A DNA stretch of 40,180 nucleotides from Roseivirga echinicomitans (lineage in GTDB: Bacteria; Bacteroidota; Bacteroidia; Cytophagales; Cyclobacteriaceae), in assembly GCF_001592935.1 (NCBI RefSeq), contig NZ_LRDB01000009.1, forward strand, positions 1 to 40,180, written 5' to 3'. Positions within the stretch are counted from its first letter, which is position 1, and every line of letters begins with the position of its first letter. The notes beneath the pieces are model-generated. The model did not search any database, was not told where the DNA came from, and was given only the letters and a program-made list of their open reading frames with translations. Below, piece by piece: positions 23,876-40,180 of the stretch. The translations under genes were made by a program, and so were the position numbers.

Positions 23876-25398
<1,523 letters not shown>

Positions 25399-25399
<1 letters not shown>

Positions 25400-25653
25400 T
25401 GACTATGTTGCTCGAAATCGTAACACCAGATAAAAAAGTATTTGAAGGAGAAGTGAGCTCTGCTACCTTCACAGGTGCAGAGGGTGAGTTTCAAGTATTA
25501 TCGAATCACGCTCCAATGATCAGTGCTTTAGGGAAAGGCCGAGTAAGTATTACTGCCTCTGGAAAAGTTGAGAATTTGATTATTGACGGTGGTGTTGTTG
25601 AGGTTTTGAATAACAACGTAATCGTACTTGCTGAATCAGTAATAGAAGGTTAA
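25399..25653 (+). CDS. atpC: ATP synthase epsilon subunit (short form)
   Basis: Epsilon subunit of F1, here 84 residues and consisting of the N-terminal beta-sandwich only (LEIVTPDKKVFEGEV, GAEGEFQVLSNHAPMISALG). The C-terminal helical hairpin of most bacteria is absent, as is common in Bacteroidota. It is translated with atpD. The last 205 bases and the terminator exist a second time at 39343-39605; this left copy is the one joined to atpD and is intact. ATG 25399 is used; an in-frame ATG at 25405 is possible. Confidence 0.96.
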
Positions 25654-25711
25654 ACAATCTTTAACAATATTTGAAAAGCCTCTTTGAGAAATCAGAGAGG
25701 CTTTTTTGTTT
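25449..25711 (+). repeat. Left direct repeat (atpC 3' end + terminator)
   Basis: 263 bases that recur at 39343-39605 with four substitutions (98.5% identity), at an exact offset of 13,894 bases. The repeat starts inside atpC and ends just past the terminator T-run, where the sequences part completely. It is the left boundary of insert B. Confidence 0.97.
25674..25707 (+). terminator. Rho-independent terminator after atpC
   Basis: AAAAGCCTCT (25674-25683) pairs with AGAGGCTTTT (25696-25705), followed by T. The A/T-flanked stem could also stop the HlyD-gene transcript coming from the other strand. Confidence 0.9.
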
Positions 25712-25823
25712 TTATATTGTCTTTTACTAAAATGGTACTACTTATAAAGGGTAACTGCAAATAGTTGAGTTCCTTTTTTCAAAGAATTCATATACAATAA
25801 TGATGGTCATGAATTTTAGAGAT

Positions 25824-27140
25824 CTAGTTTCTCCCAATCACTTTTCTTAGCTGGTAGAAGATTCTTTGTAAAACGGTTAGCTCTTCCGTTACAATTTCAG
25901 CAGAGCCTTGCATTTCCTGTTTAAATTCCATCGTTTTACCGAATGATGTTGTTAAACTATCAATATTTACTTGAACAGAATACTCGGCTAGACCTTGTTT
26001 AGGAACAGATGAAATATTCACCACAAGCCCGCTCAAGCTTCCCCATTCTGACTGAGGGTAATTATCAATTTTTATAATTACTCTTTGTCCTACTTTTACT
26101 TTTCCCGAATTTTGAACGGGCAAAACGACTTTCCCTATCAGCGACCCAATCTCTTCTGGTACAACAGTAAATAGGACTGTACCAGCATCAACATTTTGGT
26201 ATTTAGTCCAAATATCAAATAGCGTCACTTTTCCAGCTATTGGGCTCTCAATAACATAGCTTTGCTCCCAACTTGCTATGGCATTCTTAAGGTTTTGAAT
26301 TCCTTCCTTCAGTAGTTGAAGATTATTATGCTGTATTTCTTCATCACTAAGAAGTAACCTTGTTTTGTTTCCGTTTAAGGACGAAATACTAATCTGTGTA
26401 TTGGCAATCTGCATCTGTAAACTTTCAAATCGCTGCTTATCTCCCAAATATGCTCTAGAACCTCTCTCAAACTCTACAGTTGAAATTACGCTACTGTCGA
26501 GTAAGCTAACATTACGTTGGTAAGCAACTAGAGATAATTCAAGCTCCTCCTTAAAGAGTTGAAGCTGATTGTTCTGTTTTTTTAGAAGTGTTTGTTGTTC
26601 TATAATTTGGTCAGCAATCAGCTCAGCTTGGACCTGATTTGGCTGGTTTTTTTGATAGAGCAGGTAATTTTGGCATTGGGCAATAAACTGATAATAATCA
26701 CGCTGAACTTCTCCCAGAGACAAAGTTAAAGGAAATTCGTAGTTCAAAGAATCTAGGTCTGTTTCCCCTAATTGAAATTTAGTTATCTTATCCTTAACCC
26801 ATAGAACATCATTTACCTCGGCAGTATTTTCAATAATTGCTAGTATCTCATTTTTTTCAACTTCTTTATCTGGTTTAGCAAATATATGAGAGATTTTACC
26901 TGAACTTCGTGCCCTAATATATACTGGTGGCTCAAGGCTGGTAACTGTAACTCTAGCTGGCACCACATCATCGTAGCTAATCAATGCCGCCCCCACAATT
27001 ATTGAGATCACTATCAATAGAACAACAGTAATGCCCCACCTGATTACCCAATTAGGTGCTTGACCCATTATTTCAGTGACTGCATTTGATCTTACATCCA
27101 AGTCAATATTCTTAACCTTATTACTCGTCTTTCTTATCAT
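25824..27140 (-). CDS. HlyD-family membrane fusion protein for peptide export
   Basis: 438-residue periplasmic adaptor that should link the C39-type ABC exporter to an outer-membrane channel. A single N-terminal transmembrane helix (about 33-54, VIRWGITVVLLIVISIIVGAAL) is followed by a lipoyl/barrel-sandwich start (VTVTSLEPPVYIRARSSGKISHIF), a long Gln/Leu-rich coiled coil (about 150-290) and the returning barrel (SPIAGKVTLFDIWTKY, GKVVLPVQNSGKVKVGQRVIIKIDNYP). Its ATG overlaps the stop of the ABC exporter gene by four bases, so both are one operon, last gene here. It converges on atpC. The outer-membrane channel is not encoded in the island and must come from the host. Confidence 0.9.
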   Translation of the reverse strand: MIRKTSNKVKNIDLDVRSNAVTEIMGQAPNWVIRWGITVVLLIVISIIVGAALISYDDVVPARVTVTSLEPPVYIRARSSGKISHIFAKPDKEVEKNEILAIIENTAEVNDVLWVKDKITKFQLGETDLDSLNYEFPLTLSLGEVQRDYYQFIAQCQNYLLYQKNQPNQVQAELIADQIIEQQTLLKKQNNQLQLFKEELELSLVAYQRNVSLLDSSVISTVEFERGSRAYLGDKQRFESLQMQIANTQISISSLNGNKTRLLLSDEEIQHNNLQLLKEGIQNLKNAIASWEQSYVIESPIAGKVTLFDIWTKYQNVDAGTVLFTVVPEEIGSLIGKVVLPVQNSGKVKVGQRVIIKIDNYPQSEWGSLSGLVVNISSVPKQGLAEYSVQVNIDSLTTSFGKTMEFKQEMQGSAEIVTEELTVLQRIFYQLRKVIGRN

Positions 27141-29344
27141 GATCCAAGCTCTAATTGATTTTTAACCAGTTCGTAGTAAGCTCCTTTTTGACTTACCAAT
27201 GCATCATGGTCGCCTGTTTCAATGATCCTTCCTTTGTCTAAAACTAGAATCTGATCAGCATTTTTTACAGTGCTTAAGCGGTGCGCTACCACTACCACTG
27301 TACGACCCTCATAGAACTCTGCCAAGTTCTCCATGATCATTCTTTCATTATTGGCATCCAATGAACTGGTAGCCTCATCGAAAAACAGGTATTTAGGGTC
27401 TTTATAAACAGCTCGCGCAATAAAAATACGTTGGGCCTGACCTCCACTGATATTCACACCACTACCTCCAATTTTAGTTTCTAATCCAGCAGGCAACTCT
27501 TCAATAAAGGTTTTGATATTAGCGATTCTAATCGCTTCATTTAATCTTTCAGAATCATTATTGCCGTTAGAATCTGATTCTGTGATATTCCGTGCTATGG
27601 TATCTCCAAACAGAAAGCCATCCTGCATAACTGTTCCACAAGACTTTCGCCATGTTTTAATACTTAAATCTGCCAATTTGGAGACTCCAACATGAATAGT
27701 TCCAGCTGTGGGCTCATAAAACCTAAGTAATAACTTTAATAAAGTAGTTTTACCACTGCCACTGGCACCAACGATGGCAGTTACTTTTCCTTCTGGGATG
27801 TTACAATTAACATTATCTAGCGCCAGGGCTGAGCTCTTACTGCCATACCTAAAACTCAAATTATTGAGATGAATATTAGCCACCGATGGAAGCACTTTGA
27901 TGTTTGTTTGAAAAGGATCTTCCTCATCCTCTTTCATGTGAATTTCACCTAGTCGCTCGATACTAATTTTAGCATCTTGCCCTGCCTGAATAAAGGAAAT
28001 AAAGTTTTGAATGGGCATGTTCAATTGCCCTATGATATATTGAACAGATAGCATCATACCAAGCGTGAGTTCTCCTGAAATCACTGCGCTTGCTGCCACG
28101 AATGTGATGAGTATATTTTTCACCTCATTGATAAATCCACCACCATTATTCTGAGTTTGGGATAGCGCAAGACTTTTGATAGAGACCTTAAAGAGTTTTA
28201 CCTGAATGGCTTCCCATTCCCATCTCCTTCTTCGTTCAGAGCCATTAAGTTTGATCTCTTGCATTCCAGAGATAAGCTGATAAATGCTACTTTGATTATC
28301 CGATGCTTGGTCAAAACGTTTGTAGTCCAATTCTTTCCTTCTTTTTAAGAAGAGGACTGTCCAACCCACATAAATGACAGACCCTAGCATGAAAATGAGG
28401 AAGATAGTCAGGTTATAATAGGCTAAGACAACACCAAAAATAACCAAGTTAAAAGCCGAGAAAAGTGTGTTTAGCGTTGTTGATGATAAAAAACTTTGAA
28501 TACGGCTATGATCGTGAATTCTCTGAACAATATCTCCTGTATTCTTTGAATCAAAAAATGAAATGGGTAGGCGCATCAACTTAATCAAAAAGTCAGCAAT
28601 AAGGTTGATGTTAATTCTACTCGTCATATGCAAGAGCAACCAGCCACGAATAATACCTACAGTAGTTTGAGAAATAAATAGGGTAAGCTGAGCGATTAAC
28701 ATTAAGTAGATAAAACCAATATTCTGAAAGTTGATACCGTAGTCAACTACTGATTGCGTGATAAATGGAAAAATCAGTTGAAGCAAACTACCTACCAAGA
28801 GGCCTAAAAAAAGCTGTGCAATGTACTTATGGTAAGGCTTAAAGTACCTGAGCAGAAACTTGAAACCGAATTTTCTTGTGTCTTTACTGTCCTCATTTTC
28901 ATAGAATAGAGGTGTCGGTTCAAGTGCCAACAGAAAGCCTTCAGATTCATTGCTGCTATCTTTCCCTAGCCACCCCTCCATAAATTCTTTAATACTATAA
29001 ATCACCAAGCCATGTGCAGGGTCAGCCACATATACCCTGCGTTTTGTGATTTTATAGACAACTACAAAATGACGTTGTCGCCAGTGTGCAATACACGGTA
29101 AAAAGACTTCTTCTTTTAGAATCTCAAAGTTCACCTTAACCGGCAAAGAATGGAAGCCTAAATCCTCTGCTGCCTCAGCAATCCCACCCAAAGAAACCCC
29201 ATCACGGCCGATGGCCGACCTCTCTCTTAAGTGATCTATTGAGATTTTTTTACCATGAAAATTGGTGATCATTCTGAGGCAAGTAGGGCCGCAGTCCATT
29301 TGGTCTAGCTGTTTAAAAAAAGGGAAAGCTTTGATGTAGCTCAT
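27137..29344 (-). CDS. Peptidase C39-containing ABC exporter (LanT-like)
   Basis: 735-residue bifunctional exporter that should cut the leader of the precursor after Gly-Gly and move the core peptide across the inner membrane. The N-terminal C39 cysteine protease has QMDCGPTCL with Cys18, Gln12 as oxyanion residue, HFVVVY with His92, and ADPAHG with Asp108. Six transmembrane helices follow (about 170-450). The ATPase domain carries Walker A GASGSGKTT, signature SGGQAQR, Walker B YLFFDEATSSLD and the H-loop HRLST. It is transcribed away from lanC; the 167-base divergent gap holds an inverted repeat (29430-29469). The HlyD gene follows with a four-base overlap. Confidence 0.95.
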   Translation of the reverse strand: MSYIKAFPFFKQLDQMDCGPTCLRMITNFHGKKISIDHLRERSAIGRDGVSLGGIAEAAEDLGFHSLPVKVNFEILKEEVFLPCIAHWRQRHFVVVYKITKRRVYVADPAHGLVIYSIKEFMEGWLGKDSSNESEGFLLALEPTPLFYENEDSKDTRKFGFKFLLRYFKPYHKYIAQLFLGLLVGSLLQLIFPFITQSVVDYGINFQNIGFIYLMLIAQLTLFISQTTVGIIRGWLLLHMTSRININLIADFLIKLMRLPISFFDSKNTGDIVQRIHDHSRIQSFLSSTTLNTLFSAFNLVIFGVVLAYYNLTIFLIFMLGSVIYVGWTVLFLKRRKELDYKRFDQASDNQSSIYQLISGMQEIKLNGSERRRRWEWEAIQVKLFKVSIKSLALSQTQNNGGGFINEVKNILITFVAASAVISGELTLGMMLSVQYIIGQLNMPIQNFISFIQAGQDAKISIERLGEIHMKEDEEDPFQTNIKVLPSVANIHLNNLSFRYGSKSSALALDNVNCNIPEGKVTAIVGASGSGKTTLLKLLLRFYEPTAGTIHVGVSKLADLSIKTWRKSCGTVMQDGFLFGDTIARNITESDSNGNNDSERLNEAIRIANIKTFIEELPAGLETKIGGSGVNISGGQAQRIFIARAVYKDPKYLFFDEATSSLDANNERMIMENLAEFYEGRTVVVVAHRLSTVKNADQILVLDKGRIIETGDHDALVSQKGAYYELVKNQLELGS

Positions 29345-29429
29345 ATATCATAACAGACCTTATTTATATGTACACTAATGAAATCTTGAATTGTAAAGGC
29401 CTTATATGACTGTTGCAGAAACACTAAAT

Positions 29430-29469
29430 AGGTAATCAAAAGATAAATATTTTTTAAAAGTGATTACCT
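29430..29469. promoter_or_regulatory. Perfect 9-bp inverted repeat between exporter and lanC-like genes
   Basis: AGGTAATCA (29430-29438) and TGATTACCT (29461-29469), 22-base AT-rich spacer, in the divergent promoter region. It lies 43 bases before the LanC-like ATG. It could be a dimeric operator shared by both directions, perhaps for the LytTR protein encoded in the cluster, or a leader hairpin. Confidence 0.5.
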
Positions 29470-29511
29470 CTAAGCCATTTCTGACAACACCTATTACAAA
29501 CACAAACTCAT

Positions 29512-30726
29512 ATGTTGCAGAAAATTGATTTAGAAAAGAAGCTCGAAGAAATAGAAAAGGTGTTAGAGCAAAAGTATCTAGAGGATAGCCATCTAGGAGT
29601 ATTGGCTGGACTATCGGGTATCTCACTCTTCTTCTTCTATTACGCTAAGTACAAGCAAGACAATAGGCCAGCGGAGATAGGCAGTTCTATACTTGAAGAA
29701 TCTTTAAGCAGAATAAGTGAAGGGTACACTTTCTCTACATATTGCTCAGGGATTGCCGGGCTGGGGTGGGTATTTGAGCACCTATCTGAAAATGATTTAA
29801 TAGATGTAGATAATGATCAGCTCCTACCAGATTTAGAGGATTACCTATATATAAAAATGACGCAGGATATAAATGCTTGTCATTATGATTTTCTACATGG
29901 TGCAATAGGTTACGGTCTTTACTTTTTAAAACGATTTAAAAACACTCAATCACCAGATCTCAAAAAAAAATATCAGTCCTATATACAAGAATTGATTAAT
30001 GGGCTAAAGAAAATATCAGAAGAAGACGAGCATGGTATTAAATGGTCTTCAGAAATAAACAAGACTGAGATTAAACCTAAAACGGTATATAATCTTAGTC
30101 TTTCCCATGGCATTTCAAGTATCACAAACTTTCTTGCTAGGGCTTATGAGTTCCCGGAGTTTAGACAACAGTCTCTACCGCTGCTAAAAGGAAGCGTGAG
30201 TTATATTCTAGCACAAGAAAAAGTCATAGGACAATCACTTTATCCTAGTGTAGTCCCCAAGGATTCTGAGGATGAACAAACTCAAGCGCGCCTCTCTTGG
30301 TGCTACGGAGACTTAGGAGTTGGTATGTCTCTATATAAAGCTTCACAAGTGCTTAAGGATTCAAATTTAAAAGAGCATGCAATTCGAATTTTACTTCATA
30401 CCACAAATAGGAAAGAACTGAAATCATGCGGAATAGTAGATGCCAGCCCGTGCCATGGTGCTTTTGGGCTTGCACAGATTTATGGCACCGTTTTCAATCA
30501 GACCCAAATTAAAGAGTTTAAAAGTGCATGTGATTACTGGATGGCCGCAGGACTAAACCTTGCGATTTATGAGGACGGTTATGCAGGATATAAACAACAC
30601 AAACATAATCAACCTCGCACTAATGAAGTCAGTCTATTGGAGGGAATTGCTGGCATAGGGCTATGTATAATCTCTTACCTCTCTGACTTCGAGCCTAATT
30701 GGGAAGAATCTTTAATGATCAAATAA
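29512..30726 (+). CDS. LanC-like lanthipeptide cyclase
   Basis: 404-residue cyclase that should add cysteine thiols to dehydrated Ser/Thr of the precursor to form (methyl)lanthionine. The three zinc ligands are present: Cys264 in SWCYGDLGVG and Cys314-His315 in SPCHGAFGL. LSLSHGISS (His199) matches the proton-donating histidine region of NisC. The double-barrel repeat motifs (GLSGISLF, GIAGLGWVF, GAIGYGLYF, GIAGIGLC) are regularly spaced. It is the first gene of the plus-strand biosynthetic operon, 9 bases before the LanB N-terminal part. The catalytic residues look intact, so an active cyclase is expected. Confidence 0.95.
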   Translation: MLQKIDLEKKLEEIEKVLEQKYLEDSHLGVLAGLSGISLFFFYYAKYKQDNRPAEIGSSILEESLSRISEGYTFSTYCSGIAGLGWVFEHLSENDLIDVDNDQLLPDLEDYLYIKMTQDINACHYDFLHGAIGYGLYFLKRFKNTQSPDLKKKYQSYIQELINGLKKISEEDEHGIKWSSEINKTEIKPKTVYNLSLSHGISSITNFLARAYEFPEFRQQSLPLLKGSVSYILAQEKVIGQSLYPSVVPKDSEDEQTQARLSWCYGDLGVGMSLYKASQVLKDSNLKEHAIRILLHTTNRKELKSCGIVDASPCHGAFGLAQIYGTVFNQTQIKEFKSACDYWMAAGLNLAIYEDGYAGYKQHKHNQPRTNEVSLLEGIAGIGLCIISYLSDFEPNWEESLMIK

Positions 30727-30735
30727 TCTCCTACC

Positions 30736-32973
30736 ATGAAAAGTAACCCCTACAGAAGTTTTGATAAATATGTATTGAGGACTCCTTTGCTTCCGGTGAC
30801 TTCCTTTGAAGAGTTGACCAAAGAAAACCATGTTGAAACTCAGGTCTTGAGGCAGACTTTTGCTGGAAATACCATTATTCGAGAAGCTATTTTTTTGGCC
30901 TCTCCTATCCTTTATGGACAGTTAGAAAAGTGGTGCGCCAATGAAATAACGGATAAGAAGGAAGTCGAAAAATTGACGTATTCCCTGCTTAAATATTTGA
31001 GTCGAATGTGTTCTCGATGTACACCATTTGGATTGTTTGCAGGTACTGGAGTTGGGTCTTTCGATGAATTTACCAAAATAGAGTTGGATCAGTATGCAAA
31101 ATTTGAGAGACATACTCGTTTCGACATGAACTACCTCATTGCATTGTCTCAAAACTTAACTAAGGATCAGGCCATTAAACAACAGTTGCTTTTTTACCCA
31201 AACAGTAGCTTATACCGTATTGGCAACGAGTGGCGGTATATCGAATACCATTACAATAAGAGCAATAGGCGTGTTCACCAGATGGTATCATTGGAAGATG
31301 CCGATTACTTGCGGGTAATTATTTCGGCTGCCAAAACAGGGGCATACCTCTCCGATTTATCTCAACTCTTAGTTGACGATGATATTTCTAATGAAGAAGC
31401 TTCTTCGTTTATTGACGAGTTGGTCAATAGTCAGCTTCTAATTAGCGAATTAGAGCCTGCTGTTTCTGGACCAGAGTTCTCAGACCAGTTGATGGCTTGT
31501 CTAAAAAAATTAAAAGGTGTCAAGCCTATTATAAAGACCCTTGAAGAGGCTGAACAAAGCATACAACTTCTAGATAGAAGACTGGGTAACCCTACCAAGG
31601 ATTACATCAACATAACAGACGCTATAAAAACTTTAGGAACAAAGTTCGAGCTGAAACATATGTTTCAAACCGACATGGTTCTATCCCTGGAAGAAAATAG
31701 GTTGAATAGTACCGTCAAGGATCAGGCATTAAAAGTTATGACTCTTCTGGCTAAAATCACCCCACCGAGAGAAGAAACTATGCTCAGTCAGTTTGGTAAG
31801 GCATTTTATGAACGTTTTGAAGGTAGAGAAGTGCCATTAGCCAGAGCGCTAGATGTAGAGGTGGGTATTGGTTACAAACAAAACCAAGGAAGTGGAGATG
31901 TTAACTATCTTATTGATGATATTATAACGCTGGACAGCAAGAAAAACTTTACCAGCTCACTGAGTTTGACCGCTGCCCAACAAATTCTGCACAGAAAACT
32001 TATTGATAGTATTAAACTTCAACAGCCTGTAATTTATTTAAGTGATAAGGATTTTGAACAATTCAACGTCAACTGGGAAGACCTACCGGATACACTACCC
32101 ACTATGATTCAAGTAGTCCACGAAGGTGATGAGGAGAAAATACTCATATCTGGTTTTGGTGGATCTTCTGCAGCCAATCTCTTAGCCAGGTTCTGCCACG
32201 GAGATAAAGAAATTGACTCATATATACGCGAAATTACTAGCCAAGAGTTGAAGCTTAACCCAGATAGGATTTTAGCTGAAATTGTTCACCTACCAGAATC
32301 ACGTGTTGGGAACATTCTGATGCGACCAGTGCTCAGGGACTATGAAATACCTTACCTAGCCAAGTCTATTTTACCAATAGAAAATCAACTGAGCATAGAT
32401 GATTTGGTAATTAGCGCAACCCCTAATGGCACAGTTACCCTTAAATCATTATCACAAAACAAAGAAGTGATCCCTAGGCTATCCAATGCTCATAATTTTT
32501 CAAGCCAGTCTCTACCGATCTATCATTTTTTAGCTGATTTACAAACTCAAGGAAAACGCATGCTAGGCTTTGGCTGGGGTAGTATAGCCGAGCTTTACAA
32601 TTATCTACCAAGGGTAGAATATGACGGGATAATATTAAGCAAGACCCAATGGACTATTGCTAAAAAAGACATTGAGCAGATGACCAAGGCTGGTGCCGAT
32701 GATGACAAGCTTGAAGCAGCGCTGAAATTATGGAATGAAACACATCAAATTCCTCATTATGTGTTACTGGTAGAAGGAGATAATGAGCTTCTCATTAACA
32801 CTCATAACCTAACCTCAATACGGATGCTCCTCAATGAAGTAAAAAAGAGAGAGCAGTTTAGACTAAGTGAATTTCTACATGACAATGAAACAGTCGTCAA
32901 GCAAGGCAAAAATCATTATACCAATCAGGTCATCATGTCCTTTGTGAATACTCAAAAAAGCATAAGCAAATGA
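30736..32973 (+). CDS. Lantibiotic dehydratase, N-terminal (glutamylation) part of split LanB
   Basis: 745-residue protein of the Lant_dehydr_N family. It should transfer glutamate from glutamyl-tRNA(Glu) to Ser/Thr of the precursor. The family pattern is visible near the N-terminus (YVLRTPLLPV, then the ILYGQLEKW and LLKYLSRMCSRCTPFGLFAG motifs at about 88-120; RCTPFGLF is the hallmark) and in the ERHTRFDMNYL region. It ends without the elimination domain, which is encoded separately next to it (four-base overlap, ATGA), so this is a split class I dehydratase, as known for the pinensin-type clusters of Bacteroidota. A tRNA-Glu gene lies 1.7 kb downstream in the same island. Confidence 0.93.
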   Translation: MKSNPYRSFDKYVLRTPLLPVTSFEELTKENHVETQVLRQTFAGNTIIREAIFLASPILYGQLEKWCANEITDKKEVEKLTYSLLKYLSRMCSRCTPFGLFAGTGVGSFDEFTKIELDQYAKFERHTRFDMNYLIALSQNLTKDQAIKQQLLFYPNSSLYRIGNEWRYIEYHYNKSNRRVHQMVSLEDADYLRVIISAAKTGAYLSDLSQLLVDDDISNEEASSFIDELVNSQLLISELEPAVSGPEFSDQLMACLKKLKGVKPIIKTLEEAEQSIQLLDRRLGNPTKDYINITDAIKTLGTKFELKHMFQTDMVLSLEENRLNSTVKDQALKVMTLLAKITPPREETMLSQFGKAFYERFEGREVPLARALDVEVGIGYKQNQGSGDVNYLIDDIITLDSKKNFTSSLSLTAAQQILHRKLIDSIKLQQPVIYLSDKDFEQFNVNWEDLPDTLPTMIQVVHEGDEEKILISGFGGSSAANLLARFCHGDKEIDSYIREITSQELKLNPDRILAEIVHLPESRVGNILMRPVLRDYEIPYLAKSILPIENQLSIDDLVISATPNGTVTLKSLSQNKEVIPRLSNAHNFSSQSLPIYHFLADLQTQGKRMLGFGWGSIAELYNYLPRVEYDGIILSKTQWTIAKKDIEQMTKAGADDDKLEAALKLWNETHQIPHYVLLVEGDNELLINTHNLTSIRMLLNEVKKREQFRLSEFLHDNETVVKQGKNHYTNQVIMSFVNTQKSISK

Positions 32974-33878
32974 ACAGCAAGATAGATACAACCCAAAGGT
33001 CATTTATGATTGGCGACTCATGGCTTTATTATAAATTATATACTGGTCATAAGCTGGCAGACCAAGTCTTAGCAGAGGCAATCAGACCATTAACCCAAGA
33101 ACTACTTGATAAAGGGATTATAGAAAAATGGTTCTTTATACGCTATTCAGACCCTAAATTTCATTTGAGAATACGATTTTTCTTTAATAATAAAGAAGCT
33201 GTTTCTACTATCATAGCGGCATTTAACCAAGCGCTACTGCGCTATACCAAGGAAGACTTAATCTGGAAAATCCAAGTAGAGGATTATCATCGCGAATTAG
33301 AACGGTATGGTCAATCCACAATGGAGGAATCAGAGTCTTTATTTCTACATGATAGTCAATTTGTAGTGAGGCTTTTGGACTTAATTGAAGGTCAAGAAGG
33401 AGAAGAGTTAAAGTGGCTATTGGGGCTTAGAGGAATTGATAGTCTCTTAAACGCTTTTGATTACTCTTTAGAAGACAAACTGGCCCTAGCAGATAAATTA
33501 AAGACTGGATTTGCTTATGAATTTGGTATGTCGCGATTCTTAAAAAAGCAGTTAGACGACAAGTATCGGAGCCTAAGAAAGAAAATAGACGATTTCCTAG
33601 GCGAAAAACTAGAACAAGACTTGGAGCTAACGCCATTGCTAAAATTGATAAAGGAGAGAGAGGCTGGGTTTCTGTCCATCGCCAAACAATTACGATTGAG
33701 AGAAAAGAATCAGTCTCTCGAGAAATCACTAGACGACCTGATGGCTAGCTATATCCACATGTTTATGAATAGATTATTTCGATCTCAGAACCGGAAGTAT
33801 GAATTGGTCATTTATGACTTTGTATACCGCACTTACACTTCACAAAATGCGAGACTAAAGTTTCAAAATTTAAAATAG
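32970..33878 (+). CDS. Split LanB C-terminal elimination domain (thiopeptide-type biosynthesis protein)
   Basis: 302-residue protein of the Lant_dehydr_C / SpaB C-terminal type. It should remove glutamate from the glutamylated Ser/Thr and so leave dehydro-residues. The N-terminal motif SWLYYKLYTGHKLADQVL, then the IEKWFFIRYSDPKFHLRIRF signature (about 40-60), and the C-terminal MNRLFRSQNRKYELVIYDFVYRTY segment fit the family. It overlaps the dehydratase N-terminal gene by four bases and the LytTR gene begins two bases after its stop, so all three are co-translated. It functions only together with the N-terminal partner. Confidence 0.92.
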   Translation: MNSKIDTTQRSFMIGDSWLYYKLYTGHKLADQVLAEAIRPLTQELLDKGIIEKWFFIRYSDPKFHLRIRFFFNNKEAVSTIIAAFNQALLRYTKEDLIWKIQVEDYHRELERYGQSTMEESESLFLHDSQFVVRLLDLIEGQEGEELKWLLGLRGIDSLLNAFDYSLEDKLALADKLKTGFAYEFGMSRFLKKQLDDKYRSLRKKIDDFLGEKLEQDLELTPLLKLIKEREAGFLSIAKQLRLREKNQSLEKSLDDLMASYIHMFMNRLFRSQNRKYELVIYDFVYRTYTSQNARLKFQNLK

Positions 33879-33879
33879 A

Positions 33880-34230
33880 ATGGGTATGACCACAGAAAGA
33901 CAAGACAATATTCTCATCCCGACCACAAAGGGCTTGCAGCTAGAAAAGACAAACAATATACAGAATATCTGTGCGGAAGGCAGTTATTGTGAGCTTATGC
34001 TAATCTCTGGTGCTAAGCATATGATCAGTAAGAATTTATCGAGTCTAACTAAGTTATTGCCAAGCCATACCTTTTTTAGAATCCACACCTCTGTAGTAAT
34101 TAACATCGCCCATATTAAAGAAGTGATTGGTACGGAAGTGGTGATGAGCAATGATTGCCGATTCCCGATTGCACAACGTAGGAAAAAGGAATTTGTGGAT
34201 TTTCTTAAGCGCAACTCACTTTCCTTATGA
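33880..34230 (+). CDS. Stand-alone LytTR DNA-binding regulator
   Basis: 116-residue protein containing little more than a LytTR domain. NNIQNICAEGSYCELMLISGAKHMISKNLSSLTKLLPSHTFFRIHTSVVINIAHIKEVIG contains the first strands and the FxRxHxSxxIN motif (FFRIHTSVVIN, about 68-78). The end QRRKKEFVDFL is the usual LytTR tail. There is no receiver domain and no kinase beside it, so it is not a normal two-component regulator; it may sense something directly or work by protein level. It sits two bases behind the LanB C-terminal gene and 137 bases before the precursor, hence probably controls this cluster. The start is the ATG at 33880, though an internal ATG at 33886 is possible. Confidence 0.9.
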   Translation: MGMTTERQDNILIPTTKGLQLEKTNNIQNICAEGSYCELMLISGAKHMISKNLSSLTKLLPSHTFFRIHTSVVINIAHIKEVIGTEVVMSNDCRFPIAQRRKKEFVDFLKRNSLSL

Positions 34231-34278
34231 GATTCATTTATCAAGGCTTTCCCATCGTTTTTGCTTGTAAGTAAAGCG

Positions 34279-34289
34279 TTCTTAAAGAA
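34279..34289. promoter_or_regulatory. Palindrome in precursor leader region
   Basis: TTCTT-A-AAGAA, 11-bp perfect palindrome in the 137-base gap before the precursor gene. The AT-rich gap must hold the precursor promoter; I see no exact TAnnTTTG there, which would fit a promoter dependent on an activator such as the LytTR protein. Confidence 0.3.
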
Positions 34290-34367
34290 TATATTATCAT
34301 TTGAATATCAAGTCTTTATCATATTTACCTTAGTTATGAATTAAATGTTTAATAAAAATTAATAATT

Positions 34368-34643
34368 ATGAAAAAGCAAAAATTTAACGGAAAGCTAAGG
34401 CTTAAGAAAAACGTGATTTCAGGTTTTAATGCTGCGCAAGTGCGTGGGGGAATGACTGCTAATTGCCCATTCACTGCCACTGACGGTTTCCTCACTTGTG
34501 GTGATCTCTCAGAGTGTTGTGATACACTATGGGGTACACCAACTTGCGGTGGTGCCTGTAATCTCACACAAGACCCCGGTTGCGTAAGTGGAACGCCTGA
34601 TTGTCATACAGTACATATTAATACAGACTGCCCTTGTCTATAG
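34368..34643 (+). CDS. Class I lanthipeptide precursor with ten core cysteines
   Basis: 91-residue precursor. The leader (1-28) has the Bacteroidota class I form, FNGKLRLKKNVISGFNAAQVRGG, i.e. KLxLxK, then an I/L-rich helix, then Gly27-Gly28 where the C39 protease should cut. The core (29-91) holds ten cysteines (33, 44, 50, 51, 60, 64, 72, 79, 88, 90) and thirteen Ser/Thr (eleven Thr, two Ser), enough to pair every cysteine, mostly as methyllanthionine. Small loops such as TPTCGGAC and TDCPC suggest compact overlapping rings. It is followed by a strong terminator. Only one precursor gene is seen. Bioactivity is not predictable; pinensins are relatives in gene layout only. Confidence 0.92.
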   Translation: MKKQKFNGKLRLKKNVISGFNAAQVRGGMTANCPFTATDGFLTCGDLSECCDTLWGTPTCGGACNLTQDPGCVSGTPDCHTVHINTDCPCL

Positions 34644-34660
34644 TTTTTAGGTTTTTGAGT

Positions 34661-34694
34661 AAGCCCTTTTGGCATTATAGGGCTTGCTTTTTTA
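34661..34694 (+). terminator. Rho-independent terminator after lanthipeptide precursor
   Basis: AAGCCCT (34661-34667) pairs with AGGGCTT (34679-34685) around an 11-base loop, followed by GCTTTTTT. It separates the cluster from the tRNA gene. Confidence 0.9.
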
Positions 34695-34698
34695 ACAT

Positions 34699-34773
34699 AA
34701 TCCGTTCGTCTAGGGGTTAGGACGTCAGGATTTCATCCTGAAAACAGAGGTTCGATTCCTCTACGGATTACCA
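34699..34773 (+). tRNA. tRNA-Glu (anticodon TTC)
   Basis: Full cloverleaf: acceptor AATCCGT/ACGGATT (7 bp, perfect), D arm GTCTAGGGGTTAGGAC, anticodon stem TCAGG/CCTGA with loop ATTTCAT and anticodon TTC at 34732-34734, T arm GAGGTTCGATTCCTC, discriminator A and encoded CCA. It reads GAA/GAG codons. It lies 56 bases after the lanthipeptide precursor stop, inside insert B. LanB uses glutamyl-tRNA(Glu), so its presence next to a LanB cluster is suggestive, but tRNA genes are also common integration sites. Confidence 0.97.
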
Positions 34774-34865
34774 ATTGCCTTTATGGCTAAATTTTTTCAG
34801 CCTCCATTTCGAACAAGTGTCCAATTCTTCATACTGAAGGATAATAGGATGATCTAAAAATCTAA

Positions 34866-34918
34866 TATATTTGGGTTGTATTGGTTCATAGTCTACTTTC
34901 ACGTATAATCAGACTGAT
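34866..34918 (+). promoter_or_regulatory. Candidate promoter/operator of ECF-TPR-CHAT operon
   Basis: TATATTTG (34866-34873) is an exact -7 box without a good -33. ATCAG-A-CTGAT (34908-34918) is an 11-bp perfect palindrome. Both are within 90 bases of the sigma-factor start. Nothing else is seen in the 34774-34951 gap. Confidence 0.35.
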
Positions 34919-34951
34919 CAATACATACATTTATCATTTTTTTAATCTTAA

Positions 34952-35509
34952 ATGAACCCAGATCTACTTGTAGATAATATTCTCTCTAAAAATTTAAGGT
35001 TACGGGAAAAAGCGTTTCTATTTATTTATCGTAAGTGCTATCCTAAAGTTAAGCAGTATGTACTTAAGAACAGTGGTAATGTGGAGGCAGCCGAAGATGT
35101 ATTTCAGGAAGCCATAAGCATAACCTACTTTAACTTGCTCGAAAATAAATTTCGAGGAGACTCTTCTTTAGTACATTATGTAATTGGAATAGCTCGAAAC
35201 CTTTGGTTACATAAACTCAGAAAGAAAACACTGCCTACCAGCCCAATTGAGGGTAACGAGCTTAGTGAAAATGACGATCCAGGGCAAATTGACATTAGCC
35301 TACTTAATTACATATTGGCAAAGCTTAATCATGGTTGTCGTCAGATCTTAAAAAACTTTTACTTTAATGAAATGAGCATGGAAGAAGTAGCTAAAAATAG
35401 CAACCTTGGTAGTGCTCAAGCAGCGAAAACTAAAAAACTCAGGTGCATGAAAAAGTTAACCACTCTGATTGAAGAGCACGGATTAAAAAACCATGATTTT
35501 AGATTATGA
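34952..35509 (+). CDS. ECF-type RNA polymerase sigma factor
   Basis: 185-residue sigma-70-family protein with regions 2 and 4 only. Region 2 is seen around YRKCYPKVKQYVLKNSGNVEAAEDVFQEAISITYFNLLEN (about 25-65), with the usual DVFQEA, and region 4 as ILAKLNHGCRQILKNFYFNEMSMEEVAKNSNLGSAQAAKTKKLRCMKKL (about 125-175). Its stop overlaps the next ATG (four bases, ATGA). It should direct transcription of its own operon or other targets in answer to the membrane protein coded next to it. Confidence 0.92.
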   Translation: MNPDLLVDNILSKNLRLREKAFLFIYRKCYPKVKQYVLKNSGNVEAAEDVFQEAISITYFNLLENKFRGDSSLVHYVIGIARNLWLHKLRKKTLPTSPIEGNELSENDDPGQIDISLLNYILAKLNHGCRQILKNFYFNEMSMEEVAKNSNLGSAQAAKTKKLRCMKKLTTLIEEHGLKNHDFRL

Positions 35510-36198
35510 GTATAGTTGATAAATATATTGAATTCTTTGATGCGTATGACCGTAATGAGCTTTCTCAGAAAGAGGTACAGGCTTTTAAAGAACGAATAAT
35601 TAATGATGAGAAGTTTAGAGTAGCATATGAGGAGTATAGCAAACAGGTTAATCTATTAAAAGCACTTGGTGCTCGCGATCAAATGAGATCAATCATGGAC
35701 AAGGAAGAAAAAAGAAAAGTATTAAAACTCAAAATTTTCATTCCCTTAGGTATAGCCGCTAGTTTTCTATTATTGATGTTCATTTTTACGGAAAGAAAAA
35801 TAGACAATCAGCAGTTGTTTGAGACTTATTTTGAGCCATTTCCAAATTTGATAAGCTCCAGAGAAAAAGTCAGTCTGCTAGACGGGGGACTTAGGGCTTA
35901 TAGTAATTCGGATTATGAAAATGCATTGAAGATTTTTAGAACCTTATCAAACGCTAGCGACACACTTTATTTTTATCAAGGGATGAGTCATGTGTCACTA
36001 AAAAGAGCAGAGGAGGCCATCGACAGTTTTGATCACATTGGCCCTGAAAGTTATTTTTATCTGCCCTCCGTATGGTATAAGGGACTTTCATATTTGTTAA
36101 TTAATGAGACAGATTCAGCCGCTTTCTATATACAGAAAGCTGATTCTAGCGGTTATGGCGATGAAGAGCTACATGAACTTCTTAATTCTTTAAAATGA
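35506..36198 (+). CDS. Membrane protein with cytoplasmic anti-sigma-like part and TPR-like repeats
   Basis: 230-residue protein with one transmembrane helix (about 74-95, IFIPLGIAASFLLLMFIF). The N-terminal cytoplasmic part of about 70 residues is charged and helical, the position and size of an anti-sigma region; the outer part has TPR-like helices (YENALKIFRTLSNASDTLYFYQGMSHVSLKRAEEAIDSF). No zinc (HxxxCxxC) motif of classical anti-sigma ASD is seen. It overlaps the sigma gene by four bases and the CHAT gene by four bases, so it is coupled to both. Anti-sigma action is inferred from arrangement, not from a recognised domain. Confidence 0.75.
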   Translation: MSIVDKYIEFFDAYDRNELSQKEVQAFKERIINDEKFRVAYEEYSKQVNLLKALGARDQMRSIMDKEEKRKVLKLKIFIPLGIAASFLLLMFIFTERKIDNQQLFETYFEPFPNLISSREKVSLLDGGLRAYSNSDYENALKIFRTLSNASDTLYFYQGMSHVSLKRAEEAIDSFDHIGPESYFYLPSVWYKGLSYLLINETDSAAFYIQKADSSGYGDEELHELLNSLK

Positions 36199-39100
36199 AA
36201 ACTTTATTTATGCCTTATCGAAGATACGCATTAGTACTCCTGTTAATGCTTTATGTATTTGGCTTAATAGGACAAGATAAGTTTGATAAAGAGTCTCTGA
36301 CTGACTCCCTTTTGAGAGAGGCAGGGGCTTATAAGCAAGCTTTCTCACTCGATAGTTCAATTCTTTTCTATGAGCTGGCGTCAAGGGAATTGCTGAAGGA
36401 AGTAGATACAGCTGGCTACATGCTAGCAAAAATAAGCATCGGAGAAATTTATGGAACCAAAGGAGATTTTAGCAAGGCACTACAAATGTTTGATAGTGTT
36501 ATTCAAGTTACGAAAGGGAAGGCTTGGGGTAAGCCTAAATTCGAGGCGCACAATAGGAAAGCCTTTGAATTGATATCACAGCGTAAGTTTAGTGAATCCA
36601 TAGAGGTTCTTGACCAAGCGATACAATTTAACTTTGATAAACAAACTAAGGAAGGTCTGGCTAGGAATGCCCGTATTTCATTATTGAAAGCCTTTGCGTA
36701 TTTACAAATGAATAAACTTAAAGACTCAGAAGAACAGTTTGAGAGAAGCAGACATCTATATGACTCATTGAGCATGAAAAATGAATTAGCTGAGGTGCTC
36801 AATCATTTTGGGGCTTTGAAAAGTGCCCTTTTTAAAGGCGATGAAGCCATTTCATTTTTCAATGAATCAAAAGAAATATATCAAAGTGGACCGAATGAGC
36901 CTAATCCCACAAACATGGCGAGCCTCTATAATAGTATTGGTGAAGCATATAAATTCATGGGAATGATATCTCATGCTATAAACAGTTTTGAAAAGGCGGA
37001 AAAATTGCTCTCATCTATAGACCCGAATTTTCAAAACCTAGCAATAATTTATACGCATTTGGGGGAGGCATACAAAAAGAATGGAGAGCCTGAAAAGGGG
37101 CTTGAGGTTATAAATAAAGCTGTCTCTCTCTCAAAGTATCACTTTGGAAATGATAGTCAATGGACTTTCCGTACCCTATTAATGCGTGGTGAAATTTACA
37201 AAGCACTATCTTTAAATAGGAAGGCGATAGAATCGTTTGATGAGATACTCACAAAGTCACATGGCGATCACCCCAAGGAAATGCTGGATATTTTTGCTTT
37301 AACTACTCATGAAAAGGGAGGGGCTTTGATTGAGATGGGACAAGTGGAAAAGGGGATAGATTATATGAGAAAGGCCATTATGATGTCGATTGGGTCAGGA
37401 GATTATTTCGAGTTTTCAACTCTACAGCTTCAAAAAGGGCTTGGTAATGCATTTTTGAAACTCAGTGAACCCGATTCTGCGGCAAAATATTATCAACAAG
37501 CACTTAACTTTGATGAAAAATTTGTGAATAACGGTGTGGCTAATCCACAAGCAGCACATTATTTTGAACGGTATGAGGTTTTTTTTCTTAGAGCAGAGAG
37601 TTTTGAAATGATGCATAAGAGAGATCAAAATATTGCATGGTTAGACTCAGCTTACCAAATGCTGTCTTTAGCAGAAAAAGAGATCAGCTATTACAGAGAA
37701 TACCCAAGTAGATTGGCAGATAAGCTTCAAACTAGTTCTGTGATCTCTCAATTACATAATACTGGTATAAGAATATGTTATGAACTTTTTAAGTTGACTG
37801 GTATAAGTAAGTACGCTGAATATGCATACCTCTTGGGTGAGCAAAGTAAGTCCAATCAGGCGCTTTTTAATTCTGAGACTGAGATACATTTAAGTATACC
37901 AGACTCTTTACTAATCCGAGAAAAAAATCTCCACGCAACTCTTTCTTCATTGGAGACATTGCTGTATCAGGAGTTAAAGCAGACAACCCCCGATACACTT
38001 GAGGTAGAAACCTTGAGAGAAAGAATTATAAAAGCAACGGATGGGGTAATAAGACTGTCAATAGACATTAAGTCTCATTTCCCTGGGTATTTTGAACTGA
38101 GGTATAATAGAGATTATCTAGACATAAAGCGGTCGCAAGAGCTAATCTTAAAGAATGACGATTTACTTATTAACTATTATTACTCTACTGAGGATAAGGA
38201 GATATATAGGTTTGAGATAAGCAAATCAAATTTCAGTTTCACTAAACAAGAATTGGACGAAAACTTTGAGCTATCCCTTACTCAGTTTTTAGATAACTTG
38301 AGAATACCAAATGTGAGTCTAGAATCACTCAACTCGTATATTCAGCTATCAAAGAAATTAACTAAAGTACTCTTACCTAGCATAAATAGGTTAAAACCTA
38401 ATAGCTCTGTTCTTGTAATCCCTGATGGCCCACTTCATCTTCTACCGTTTGAGGCACTGCTAAAAGATGAAGAAATATTGGCAGAAGGTTTTCGTGATTT
38501 ACCATATCTTATAAATGACTTTAATTTTCATTATGGTACTTCTTCAACGCTGCTTGAAAAGCAAATAGAAAAAAGGAAAGGAACTTCAGATAATACTGTC
38601 GTGTCATTTGCTCCAGTGTTTGGGGATGATGTATTGACTGATGAAGGAGTTGCTGATTCTACGAGAGCTTCGTTGGGACTATTGGCGTATACTGAGAAAG
38701 AAACTCAAAATATAAGTAAACACTTTAAGAATATATCTTTTCTTGGCGCTCAAGCAACAGAACGACAATTTCGTAAATCGGTATCTATATATCCTATAAT
38801 ACATGTAGCGAGCCATGGCTTAGCAGATCCTGCTAACTCCCTCTACTCAAAGCTTTTATTTTCACCATTTGATCTAGATTCCATTAATGACGGGTTTCTT
38901 AGTACCCGTGAGATTTTGGGCATGAGTATTCCAGCCAAGATGGTTGTGCTTAGTGCTTGTAACACAGGTTCAGGGAGTATTTTAGGTGGAGAAGGAGTCA
39001 TGAGTCTTTCATATGGATTCTTTTACGCGGGTGCTCAAAGCCTCATCATGACTTTATGGACTGCGAATGATGAAAGCACAGCAAGTTTGATGGATAGTTT

Positions 39101-39350
39101 CTATGAGAATTTATCTAAAGGGGACGCAAAAAGTCAGGCACTAAGGGCAGCTAAGCTAGACTATCTTGAAAATACAAATTCACTTTCAGCACACCCCTAT
39201 TACTGGTCACATTTTGTAGTACATGGAAGTAATACACCTATAGTGAAAAGCGGGGTTTCCTTTAAATATTTAATTCTAATTTCATTGATTTTTGCATCTG
39301 CAATAATCTTTGTATTTCTGCAATATCGAAGTAGGTTAAGCAAGAAGTGA
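36195..39350 (+). CDS. TPR-CHAT domain protease-like protein, membrane-anchored
   Basis: 1051-residue protein. The N-terminal segment (about 8-26) is hydrophobic and may be a signal or anchor; about ten TPR-like helix pairs follow (about 30-500, motifs such as GEAYKFMGMISHAINSFEKA), then the CHAT caspase-like domain (about 720-1010). The catalytic His874 (VASHGLAD) and Cys922 (VVLSACNTGSG) are present, with the typical LTxWxANDEST and GxxKSQALRxAK tail. A C-terminal transmembrane helix (about 1023-1043) precedes RSRLSKK. The stop TGA at 39348-39350 is part of the right atpC repeat, so the last codon(s) come from repeat sequence. It ends the ECF-TPR-CHAT operon. Confidence 0.9.
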   Translation: MKTLFMPYRRYALVLLLMLYVFGLIGQDKFDKESLTDSLLREAGAYKQAFSLDSSILFYELASRELLKEVDTAGYMLAKISIGEIYGTKGDFSKALQMFDSVIQVTKGKAWGKPKFEAHNRKAFELISQRKFSESIEVLDQAIQFNFDKQTKEGLARNARISLLKAFAYLQMNKLKDSEEQFERSRHLYDSLSMKNELAEVLNHFGALKSALFKGDEAISFFNESKEIYQSGPNEPNPTNMASLYNSIGEAYKFMGMISHAINSFEKAEKLLSSIDPNFQNLAIIYTHLGEAYKKNGEPEKGLEVINKAVSLSKYHFGNDSQWTFRTLLMRGEIYKALSLNRKAIESFDEILTKSHGDHPKEMLDIFALTTHEKGGALIEMGQVEKGIDYMRKAIMMSIGSGDYFEFSTLQLQKGLGNAFLKLSEPDSAAKYYQQALNFDEKFVNNGVANPQAAHYFERYEVFFLRAESFEMMHKRDQNIAWLDSAYQMLSLAEKEISYYREYPSRLADKLQTSSVISQLHNTGIRICYELFKLTGISKYAEYAYLLGEQSKSNQALFNSETEIHLSIPDSLLIREKNLHATLSSLETLLYQELKQTTPDTLEVETLRERIIKATDGVIRLSIDIKSHFPGYFELRYNRDYLDIKRSQELILKNDDLLINYYYSTEDKEIYRFEISKSNFSFTKQELDENFELSLTQFLDNLRIPNVSLESLNSYIQLSKKLTKVLLPSINRLKPNSSVLVIPDGPLHLLPFEALLKDEEILAEGFRDLPYLINDFNFHYGTSSTLLEKQIEKRKGTSDNTVVSFAPVFGDDVLTDEGVADSTRASLGLLAYTEKETQNISKHFKNISFLGAQATERQFRKSVSIYPIIHVASHGLADPANSLYSKLLFSPFDLDSINDGFLSTREILGMSIPAKMVVLSACNTGSGSILGGEGVMSLSYGFFYAGAQSLIMTLWTANDESTASLMDSFYENLSKGDAKSQALRAAKLDYLENTNSLSAHPYYWSHFVVHGSNTPIVKSGVSFKYLILISLIFASAIIFVFLQYRSRLSKK

Positions 39351-39547
39351 GCTCTGCTACTTTCACAGGTGCAGAGGGTGAGCTTCAAGTATTATCAAAT
39401 CACGCTCCAATGATCAGTGCTTTAGGGAAAGGCCGAGTAAGTATTACTGCCTCTGGAAAAGTTGAGAATTTGATTATTGACGGTGGTGGTGTTGAGGTTT
39501 TGAATAACAACGTAATCGTACTTGCTGAATCAGTAATAGAAGGTTAA
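39347..39547 (+). pseudogene. atpC: Truncated atpC copy (N-terminus missing)
   Basis: The last 67 codons of atpC recur in frame to the same stop, with two amino-acid changes (Phe to Leu in the EGEFQ segment, Val to Gly in the DGGVV segment). The first 17 residues and atpD are missing. A GTG at 39347 overlaps the CHAT stop (GTGA), so a 66-residue product could be translated by coupling, but it would lack the first strands and is unlikely to work. It is best seen as a boundary remnant. Confidence 0.9.
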
Positions 39548-39567
39548 ACAATCTTTAACAATATTTG

Positions 39568-39601
39568 AAAAGCCTCTTTGAGAAATCAGAGAGGCTTTTT
39601 T
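39568..39601 (+). terminator. Duplicated atpC terminator, now closing the CHAT operon
   Basis: Same hairpin as at 25674-25707 (AAAAGCCTCT / AGAGGCTTTT with T-run). It gives the CHAT operon a ready-made terminator. Confidence 0.9.
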
Positions 39602-39628
39602 GTTTGTCTTGAATATGGAGAAAACAGT

Positions 39629-40036
39629 TTACTTGGCATTAATAGTTGTGATTTGAACCACACCGTATAATCCTGCGTCACCATATCTTGAGGTGGCCTG
39701 CATACCTCTAACTGTTTTAATACTTTTTACCATAACTGGAGTTAGCATTCCATTAAGGTTCACTAATGAGCTACCGACTGGAATTCCATCTACAACAAAC
39801 AAAGGTTCTCTGTTGGTGGCATTAGTAGTGTTATATCCACTCATAAATACTTTAGCACTGCTACCGTTACCCATAACCCTTAGGCCTTGAACGCTTTGAA
39901 GCACCTCTACCAAGGTATTATACTGTGAATAATCCTTTACTGCCTTTTGTCTATTGGCAGTGCCTGAGGTACTGCTACAGGCAAATAGGAATAGACTGAA
40001 AGCCGCAGTCATAAATAATAGTTGAAATTTTTTCAT
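39629..40036 (-). CDS. TonB-receptor plug-like lipoprotein
   Basis: 135-residue predicted lipoprotein. The signal peptide MKKFQLLFMTAAFSLFLFACSS has a lipobox ending at Cys20. The mature part resembles the plug domain of SusC/RagA-type TonB-dependent receptors: TLVEVLQSVQGLRV, then REPLFVVDGIPVGSSL, MVKSIKTVRGMQATSRYGDAGLYGVVQITT. No barrel follows, so this is a free-standing plug, perhaps a partner or regulator of a larger receptor. Such small plug-only lipoproteins exist in Bacteroidota. It lies just outside the right repeat and probably belongs to the original DNA downstream of atpC. Confidence 0.88.
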   Translation of the reverse strand: MKKFQLLFMTAAFSLFLFACSSTSGTANRQKAVKDYSQYNTLVEVLQSVQGLRVMGNGSSAKVFMSGYNTTNATNREPLFVVDGIPVGSSLVNLNGMLTPVMVKSIKTVRGMQATSRYGDAGLYGVVQITTINAK

Positions 40037-40107: not shown

Positions 40108-40180
40108 CTATTGTTTAGTTAATCTTATTTCAGATCTAATGCTTGATAAGGCACCTCCCCCAGTATCAGCTCTAGTGTGA
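40108..40180 (-). CDS. 3' end of a minus-strand gene cut by the window
   Basis: The last 23 codons of an open frame ending in TAG read HTRADTGGGALSSIRSEIR and a short tail. The stop is followed by a terminator, which supports this being a real C-terminus. The product cannot be named. Confidence 0.5.
   Translation of the reverse strand, partial: HTRADTGGGALSSIRSEIRLTKQ

Follow-up and report, generated by a model that had tools for sequence, protein, structure and literature searches.

Organization of the locus

The window, i.e. the whole stretch of 40,180 nucleotides that was analysed, comprises the entire contig C9 of the Roseivirga echinicomitans genome (G000), a draft assembly of 52 contigs and 4.18 Mb. 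It contains an atpD-atpC pair, an island bounded by two copies of a 263-bp repeat, and a gene for a plug-domain lipoprotein, 144 bp beyond which the contig ends at position 40180. The features are listed below.

23888..25399, plus strand: atpD, native left flank, syntenic with the relatives G006 (L044) and G004 (L046)
25399..25653, plus strand: atpC (epsilon subunit), intact, 84 aa, PF02823; protein identical in G004 and G006
25449..25711, plus strand: left copy of the 263-bp repeat, running from the third base of atpC codon 17 through the terminator end (base comparison)
25673..25706, plus strand: intrinsic terminator of atpC, left copy; fold of -21.4 kcal/mol, z -5.3
25824..27140, minus strand: HlyD-type adaptor, PF13437; 69% identity to G002
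27137..29344, minus strand: PCAT, C39 peptidase-ABC exporter, PF03412, PF00664 and PF00005; 89% identity to G002
29512..30726, plus strand: LanC cyclase, PF05147 (E 6.5e-48)
30736..32973, plus strand: split LanB, glutamylation part, PF04738 (E 3e-145)
32970..33878, plus strand: split LanB, elimination part, PF14028 (E 4.8e-71)
33880..34230, plus strand: LytTR regulator, PF04397
34368..34643, plus strand: lanthipeptide precursor candidate, 91 aa, found by inspection; no Pfam match
34657..34689, plus strand: hairpin between precursor gene and tRNA, z -3.3 (G002 counterpart z -6.2)
34699..34773, plus strand: embedded tRNA-Glu (UUC) of a divergent lineage, CCA encoded; ARAGORN, Rfam RF00005 with 59.2 bits
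34952..35509, plus strand: ECF-type sigma factor, PF04542
35506..36198, plus strand: 230-aa protein, no Pfam match; G002, G005 and G008 likewise have it between ECF gene and CHAT gene
36195..39350, plus strand: TPR-CHAT protein, 1051 aa, PF12770 and TPR; stop within the right repeat copy
39343..39605, plus strand: right repeat copy, a headless atpC 3' end with terminator at 39567-39600 (base comparison)
39606..39621, no strand: 16-base stretch at the right junction, beyond which the sequence matches the relatives again from about 39622
39629..40036, minus strand: plug-domain lipoprotein, native right flank, PF07715

Both domains of a LanB dehydratase are recognized by Pfam, as two genes, and a LanC cyclase is also present. 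The island is probably a class I lanthipeptide cluster, the product of which is probably an antibiotic. The precursor candidate, judged by inspection only, has the start of the leader and an RGG motif in common with its G002 counterpart, and its core is rich in Cys and Thr. In the proposed pathway, LanB would transfer glutamate from Glu-tRNA-Glu to Ser and Thr residues of the precursor, LanC would form the rings, and PCAT would cleave after RGG and then export the peptide. The cargo named in the original prediction, a lanthipeptide cluster, a tRNA and an ECF-CHAT operon, is borne out by Pfam and ARAGORN. The same holds for the absence of a recombinase, which was not found among the ten island proteins covered by the Pfam scan; seven overlapping opposite-strand ORFs of at least 70 aa and all shorter ORFs lie outside that scan. 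The G+C content per kb of the island (0.35-0.40) is similar to that of the flanks and thus does not point to a foreign origin.

Class I lanthipeptide clusters with a split LanB occur in the Bacteroidota, pinensin being an example. The island is like these clusters in its LanC, split LanB and C39-type exporter, its precursor candidate would add a GG-type leader and a Cys-rich core, and the order LanC-LanBn-LanBc is found in many Flavobacteriaceae LanB loci among the best 80 of at least 551 loci, some of which also have HlyD and PCAT. What sets the island apart from the known clusters is a divergent tRNA-Glu that immediately follows the precursor gene, together with an ECF-CHAT operon further downstream. 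As a type of island it is ordinary; the embedded tRNA-Glu is the unusual element.

The direct repeat

Positions 25449-25711 and 39343-39605 are identical at 259 of 263 bases with an offset of 13,894, as had been claimed earlier and as both direct base comparison and a repeat finder (same family, two copies) confirm. The mismatches are at 25467, 25489, 25503 and 25595 in coordinates of the left copy, and immediately beyond either end of the repeat identity drops to background. A query against the whole genome (52 contigs, 4.18 Mb) gave no third full copy; besides the two copies it matched only a terminator fragment of 37 bases, at C1:730462. The anticipated asymmetry of the copies also stands. 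The left copy is part of a normal atpD-atpC arrangement, with an intact atpC (25399-25653) following atpD. The right copy is headless and has the CHAT gene as its 5' neighbour: its first base is the last one of atpC codon 17, a start codon is lacking, and its frame differs from that of the CHAT gene, the stop codon of which (39348-39350) falls within the repeat. Each copy is closed by the atpC terminator hairpin, at 25673-25706 and 39567-39600, respectively. The terminator of the right copy is strong, lies directly after the CHAT gene and points toward the plug gene, and the CHAT operon may now make use of it.

A separate observation concerns the assembly. Contigs C1 and C17 of G000 each contain a TonB-receptor match at identical coordinates (3525-3743) and on the same strand, perhaps because the contig starts are duplicated or because of a long repeat where C9 terminates as well.

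The empty site and a lost oxygenase gene

In G004 and G006, which among the genus genomes compared are the closest by identity at the atpC locus (about 87%, on the atpC side), the genes for atpD, atpC, a 2OG oxygenase and the plug lipoprotein directly follow one another. The oxygenase gene encodes a 196-aa 2OG-Fe(II) protein (PF13640), and the plug lipoprotein that adjoins it is 91-92% identical to that of the window. Homology of the window DNA to these genomes extends on the left up to 25712 and starts again on the right from 39622-39627, just beyond the end of the relatives' oxygenase gene. By this comparison the island is an insertion at the atpC-plug locus relative to G004 and G006. Removal of the island and one repeat copy does not give the relatives' sequence, however, since a stretch of about 640 bp with the oxygenase gene is missing too, and a genome search gave no match to this gene in G000. 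Because the empty site also holds a gene that is absent from G000, the change was an insertion plus a deletion.

The oxygenase gene adjoins atpC in G013, G014, G016 and G018 as well, and in the other of the 19 genus genomes it is located elsewhere or has no match. Its position next to atpC in several relatives indicates that the ancestral order was most likely atpC-oxygenase-plug; the order in the G000 lineage is atpC, island, atpC 3' end and plug. The original prediction, which named an empty site with atpC directly followed by the plug gene as proof of insertion, was correct on the insertion; it had not anticipated the oxygenase gene that lies between the two. Relatives with the same gene order and a second atpC, which would have spoken against an insertion, were not encountered: a single atpC match was obtained in all of the 18 other genus genomes (18/18), and two in the window genome.

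These comparisons also bear on the possibility that the repeat caused two unrelated places to be fused during assembly. The genome is a draft of 52 contigs, a repeat of 263 bp is longer than common k-mer sizes, and the contig ends shortly after the plug gene. On the other hand, in two relatives both flanks belong to a single locus and keep their order and orientation, and the four differing bases indicate that the copies were assembled as distinct sequences. An artefact is therefore scarcely credible.

Divergence and age of the repeat copies

At the four positions where the copies differ, the base in G004 and G006 is that of the left copy three times and that of the right copy once. The right copy has three new bases, two of which change an amino acid, and the left copy has one, which is silent; that two of the four differences alter the protein had been noted correctly, and both are on the right copy. 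In the compared codons the copies differ by two synonymous and two nonsynonymous substitutions, and over the same codons there are 19 synonymous differences to each of G004 and G006. The right copy has changed faster than the left copy, in keeping with a decaying fragment. A donor from a close relative, which had been suggested to explain the four differences, is not needed since three of them arose in the right copy. If the three changes in the 263 bases of the right copy are set against half the atpD dS to G004 and G006 (dS 0.30-0.34), the duplication would, very roughly, be one fifteenth as old as the split from these relatives.

The cassette at a different site in a congener

LanB is present in two of the 19 genus genomes, G000 and G002. 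The G002 protein is 71% identical to that of the window, and the next matches in a family draw of 390 genomes are at 36-37%. The congener G002 has an eleven-part cassette with identical order from HlyD to CHAT at another site, with a GH65-family gene on one side and a PAP2-family gene on the other, about 406 kb from its own atpC. In G001 the GH65- and PAP2-family genes are side by side with 84 bp between the matched ends, which represents the empty site. Comparison of the two flank regions of the G002 cassette detected no flanking repeat, the longest match being 11 bases, and the G000 and G002 cassettes do not have a common attachment site. Between the two genomes the cassette genes show a synonymous difference pS of 0.75-0.84 per site. 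The idea that G000 and G002 exchanged the cassette recently was rejected, as its synonymous sites are near saturation.

The absence of a common site is relevant for a route in which a tyrosine or serine recombinase used the atpC 3' end as attB and the recombinase gene was lost afterwards. Elements that replace and restore the 3' end of their target gene are known, and in the case of e14 at icd the homology exceeds 100 bp. The island resembles such elements in having an intact host gene on one side, here the left atpC, and a headless 3' copy on the other. It differs from them in that no integrase was found among the ten scanned island proteins, in that the G002 cargo is located elsewhere with flank matches of at most 11 bases in the two regions compared, and in that a neighbour gene was lost at the junction. 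There is also little room for a recombinase remnant, since the HlyD stop lies 112 bp from the left repeat and the CHAT gene runs into the right repeat with no gap. Site-specific integration is accordingly very improbable.

In a FastTree phylogeny of 139 LanB sequences, G000 and G002 group with Aquimarina and Dokdonia in a clade of 22 tips with support 0.82, which is included in one of 23 tips with support 0.96; we consider the support for this placement moderate. They do not group with the 17 LanB sequences from the window genome's own family, of which, with midpoint rooting, one falls within the first 103 tips. The 80 GTDB loci in this tree were picked by similarity, so that the closeness of some is built in, and it is the distance to the own family that is informative. 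A viral or plasmid carrier of the cassette is not indicated: IMG/VR gave one LanB relative among 27 pattern matches, with 34% identity, and the 65 plasmid records that match LanB are all below 60% identity. The IMG/VR relative (L310, IMGVR_UViG_3300042261_001991) is encoded on a contig of 26 kb that is catalogued as viral.

At the same PAP2 gene, G008 (L174, 5566-19312) carries a different exporter cluster, with a C39 exporter, HlyD, a VKOR-family protein, a Cys-rich peptide with a GG leader and two CHAT genes, one of which is accompanied by ECF and 230-aa partner genes, a further case of CHAT genes next to a peptide exporter. This place is thus variable, and the link of the CHAT operon with it may be older than that of the lanthipeptide genes. 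CHAT-type matches were also seen in the flanks of five of the 80 GTDB LanB loci (L185, L192, L198, L199 and L203; four Kordia and one Aquimarina), and ECF matches in the flanks of ten of the 80.

Possible routes of insertion

In view of the above, we infer that the island entered by recombination that did not involve an integrase. Two routes can be considered. In the first, a circle carrying the cassette and a 263-bp atpC 3' end, derived from an atpC locus of the same species, entered by a RecA-type single crossover, and the oxygenase gene was lost separately. Single-crossover entry of a circle, as proposed in the original prediction, fits the topology, as the native left flank is attached to the left copy and the native right flank follows the right copy, and it agrees with copies that are much closer to each other than to the relatives. 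It leaves unexplained, however, how the first circle acquired its atpC fragment, and it requires a second, independent deletion with a breakpoint that coincides just after the terminator. Furthermore, the relatives' leader cannot be recognized after the right terminator: the proposal that the 23 bases following the right repeat are the oxygenase leader was not supported by local alignment, in which 341-410 of 2000 shuffles score equally. Nor was a repeat detected between the two flank regions compared for the G002 cargo. We regard entry of a circle as less likely than not.

The second route starts from the observation that both repeat copies depart from the relatives' sequence within a few bases of one point, just after the terminator hairpin. 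Copying could have stalled at this hairpin, followed by a template switch or illegitimate joining. The path would run from atpC and its terminator into the cassette, back to atpC codon 17, through the terminator again and then to a point past the oxygenase gene. Template switching at the hairpin would cover both the topology and the breakpoint at the oxygenase gene. We favour template switching or illegitimate joining at the hairpin, with the single-crossover circle as a close second; that the shared breakpoint reflects a stall at the hairpin is a guess. Both routes predict that RecA recombination between the 263-bp direct copies would excise the island and leave an intact atpC.

Our best explanation as a whole, including the function proposed below, is that a patchily distributed cassette with a diverged tRNA-Glu and ECF-CHAT genes was inserted without an integrase in the G000 lineage after its split from G004 and G006. 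We consider this explanation, taken in its entirety, to be fairly probable.

Sequence and conservation of the embedded tRNA-Glu

The embedded tRNA has the fold and anticodon of a tRNA-Glu and, with its upstream hairpin, is found at the same place in G000 and G002, after the precursor gene. Both host genomes possess two ordinary tRNA-Glu besides the cassette copy. The two cassette tRNAs are equal at 67 of 72 positions and differ at five (positions are columns of the 72-base sequence, in which column 71 is the conventional 72), and each has nine differences from the common tRNA-Glu of the genus (19 copies in 11 genomes, including the ordinary G002 copy that was read). Both have G1A, C27U with G43A, U44A, and G50A with C62U, and position 32 is changed differently in each; the G000 cassette tRNA has an additional double change at pair 2-70. 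Two of the common changes are not specific to the cassette, as U44A is present in host copies of G018 and U-A at 27-43 in one host sequence (L339). The A-U first acceptor pair and the A-U at 50-62 are absent from all host copies read. At the first acceptor pair, every one of the 29 genus host copies read has G-U (33 places were found; three without a locus and one at a contig edge were left out), as do 64 of 65 copies from loci of 30 other genomes, the remaining copy having G-C; overall, G-U is found in 93 of 94 host copies.

None of the pairs is broken in either cassette tRNA, and among random variants with nine changes 899 of 200,000 keep all 20 pairs. The intact fold, the compensatory changes and the near-saturated synonymous sites of the cassette argue that the tRNA has been maintained by selection. 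The embedded tRNA-Glu is, by its pattern of changes, a separate lineage common to both cassettes. An origin from a Flavobacteriaceae-like LanB source was not supported, since the nearest host sequence is the one common in its own genus; this sequence also occurs in L184 (Leptobacterium), L205 and L196 (Sinomicrobium), G083 and G500. The ordinary tRNA-Glu of G000, G004 and G006 has a changed anticodon stem (28-42, 29-41, 30-40) in comparison with the rest of the genus.

Possible role of the embedded tRNA-Glu

LanB dehydratases are described as drawing glutamate from Glu-tRNA-Glu and as reading its acceptor stem (PMC9993889; PMC10877564). MibB distinguishes tRNA-Glu isoacceptors (PMC9993889; PMC10877564), and with BpcB of Blautia producta both isoacceptors are used (PMC10877564). 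Titles and the starts of abstracts in open-licence PMC articles gave no example of a tRNA gene inside a lanthipeptide cluster.

Linkage of a tRNA-Glu to LanB was seen only in the two clusters of this type, in G000 and G002. It was absent from the 40 strongest LanB loci after the window's own in a 395-genome draw (0/40), a set that left out weaker places of G137, G195, G439, G249 and G328, and from the best 80 of at least 551 GTDB loci (0/80). The locus stretches were at most 22 kb long, some being much shorter, down to 3.3 kb, and the two sets overlap in at least two loci (L144 = L255 and L155 = L249). A phylum-wide linkage of LanB and tRNA-Glu was rejected on these counts, which imply that LanB generally needs no nearby tRNA-Glu.

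The same counts can be cited for the alternative that the embedded tRNA is a passenger unrelated to LanB, for example a remnant of a past integration into a tRNA gene, a frequent target of such events. Yet a passenger would not be expected to occupy the same place in both cassettes, in hosts that already have two ordinary tRNA-Glu, or to preserve its fold by compensatory changes while synonymous sites approach saturation, and a tRNA-Glu is exactly what LanB consumes. We consider a passenger tRNA somewhat less likely than not.

For a tRNA-Glu that lies inside a LanB cluster, has been kept and has diverged in its acceptor stem, the likeliest role is that of a dedicated co-substrate. The embedded tRNA-Glu would donate glutamyl groups specifically to LanB and move together with it. 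This role, and with it the more specific proposal that the island is a portable pathway with a private glutamyl-donor tRNA-Glu specialised for LanB at the acceptor stem by its A-U first pair, is put forward tentatively, as somewhat short of an even chance. The tRNA keeps the UUC anticodon and could serve translation.

Implications

The insertion provides a clear case of a biosynthetic cluster that has reached a new location with no recombinase among its ten scanned proteins, and in which one can see the empty site as well as the gene that was lost and the gene fragment in decay. The embedded tRNA-Glu had been listed earlier without interpretation. Placement of a piece of the translation machinery in a biosynthetic cluster is also found in the sbz cluster, which contains SbzA, an IleRS copy (PMC12945691); the island differs in that it carries the tRNA itself and not a synthetase-like protein. 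If the proposed role is correct, a private donor would let the cassette work in hosts with differing tRNA-Glu and would keep glutamate supply under its own control. The choosiness of LanB for tRNA-Glu limits peptide production in other hosts (PMC9993889; PMC10877564), and a cassette with its own diverged tRNA-Glu would then be a natural solution to this choosiness and would offer a ready cognate pair.
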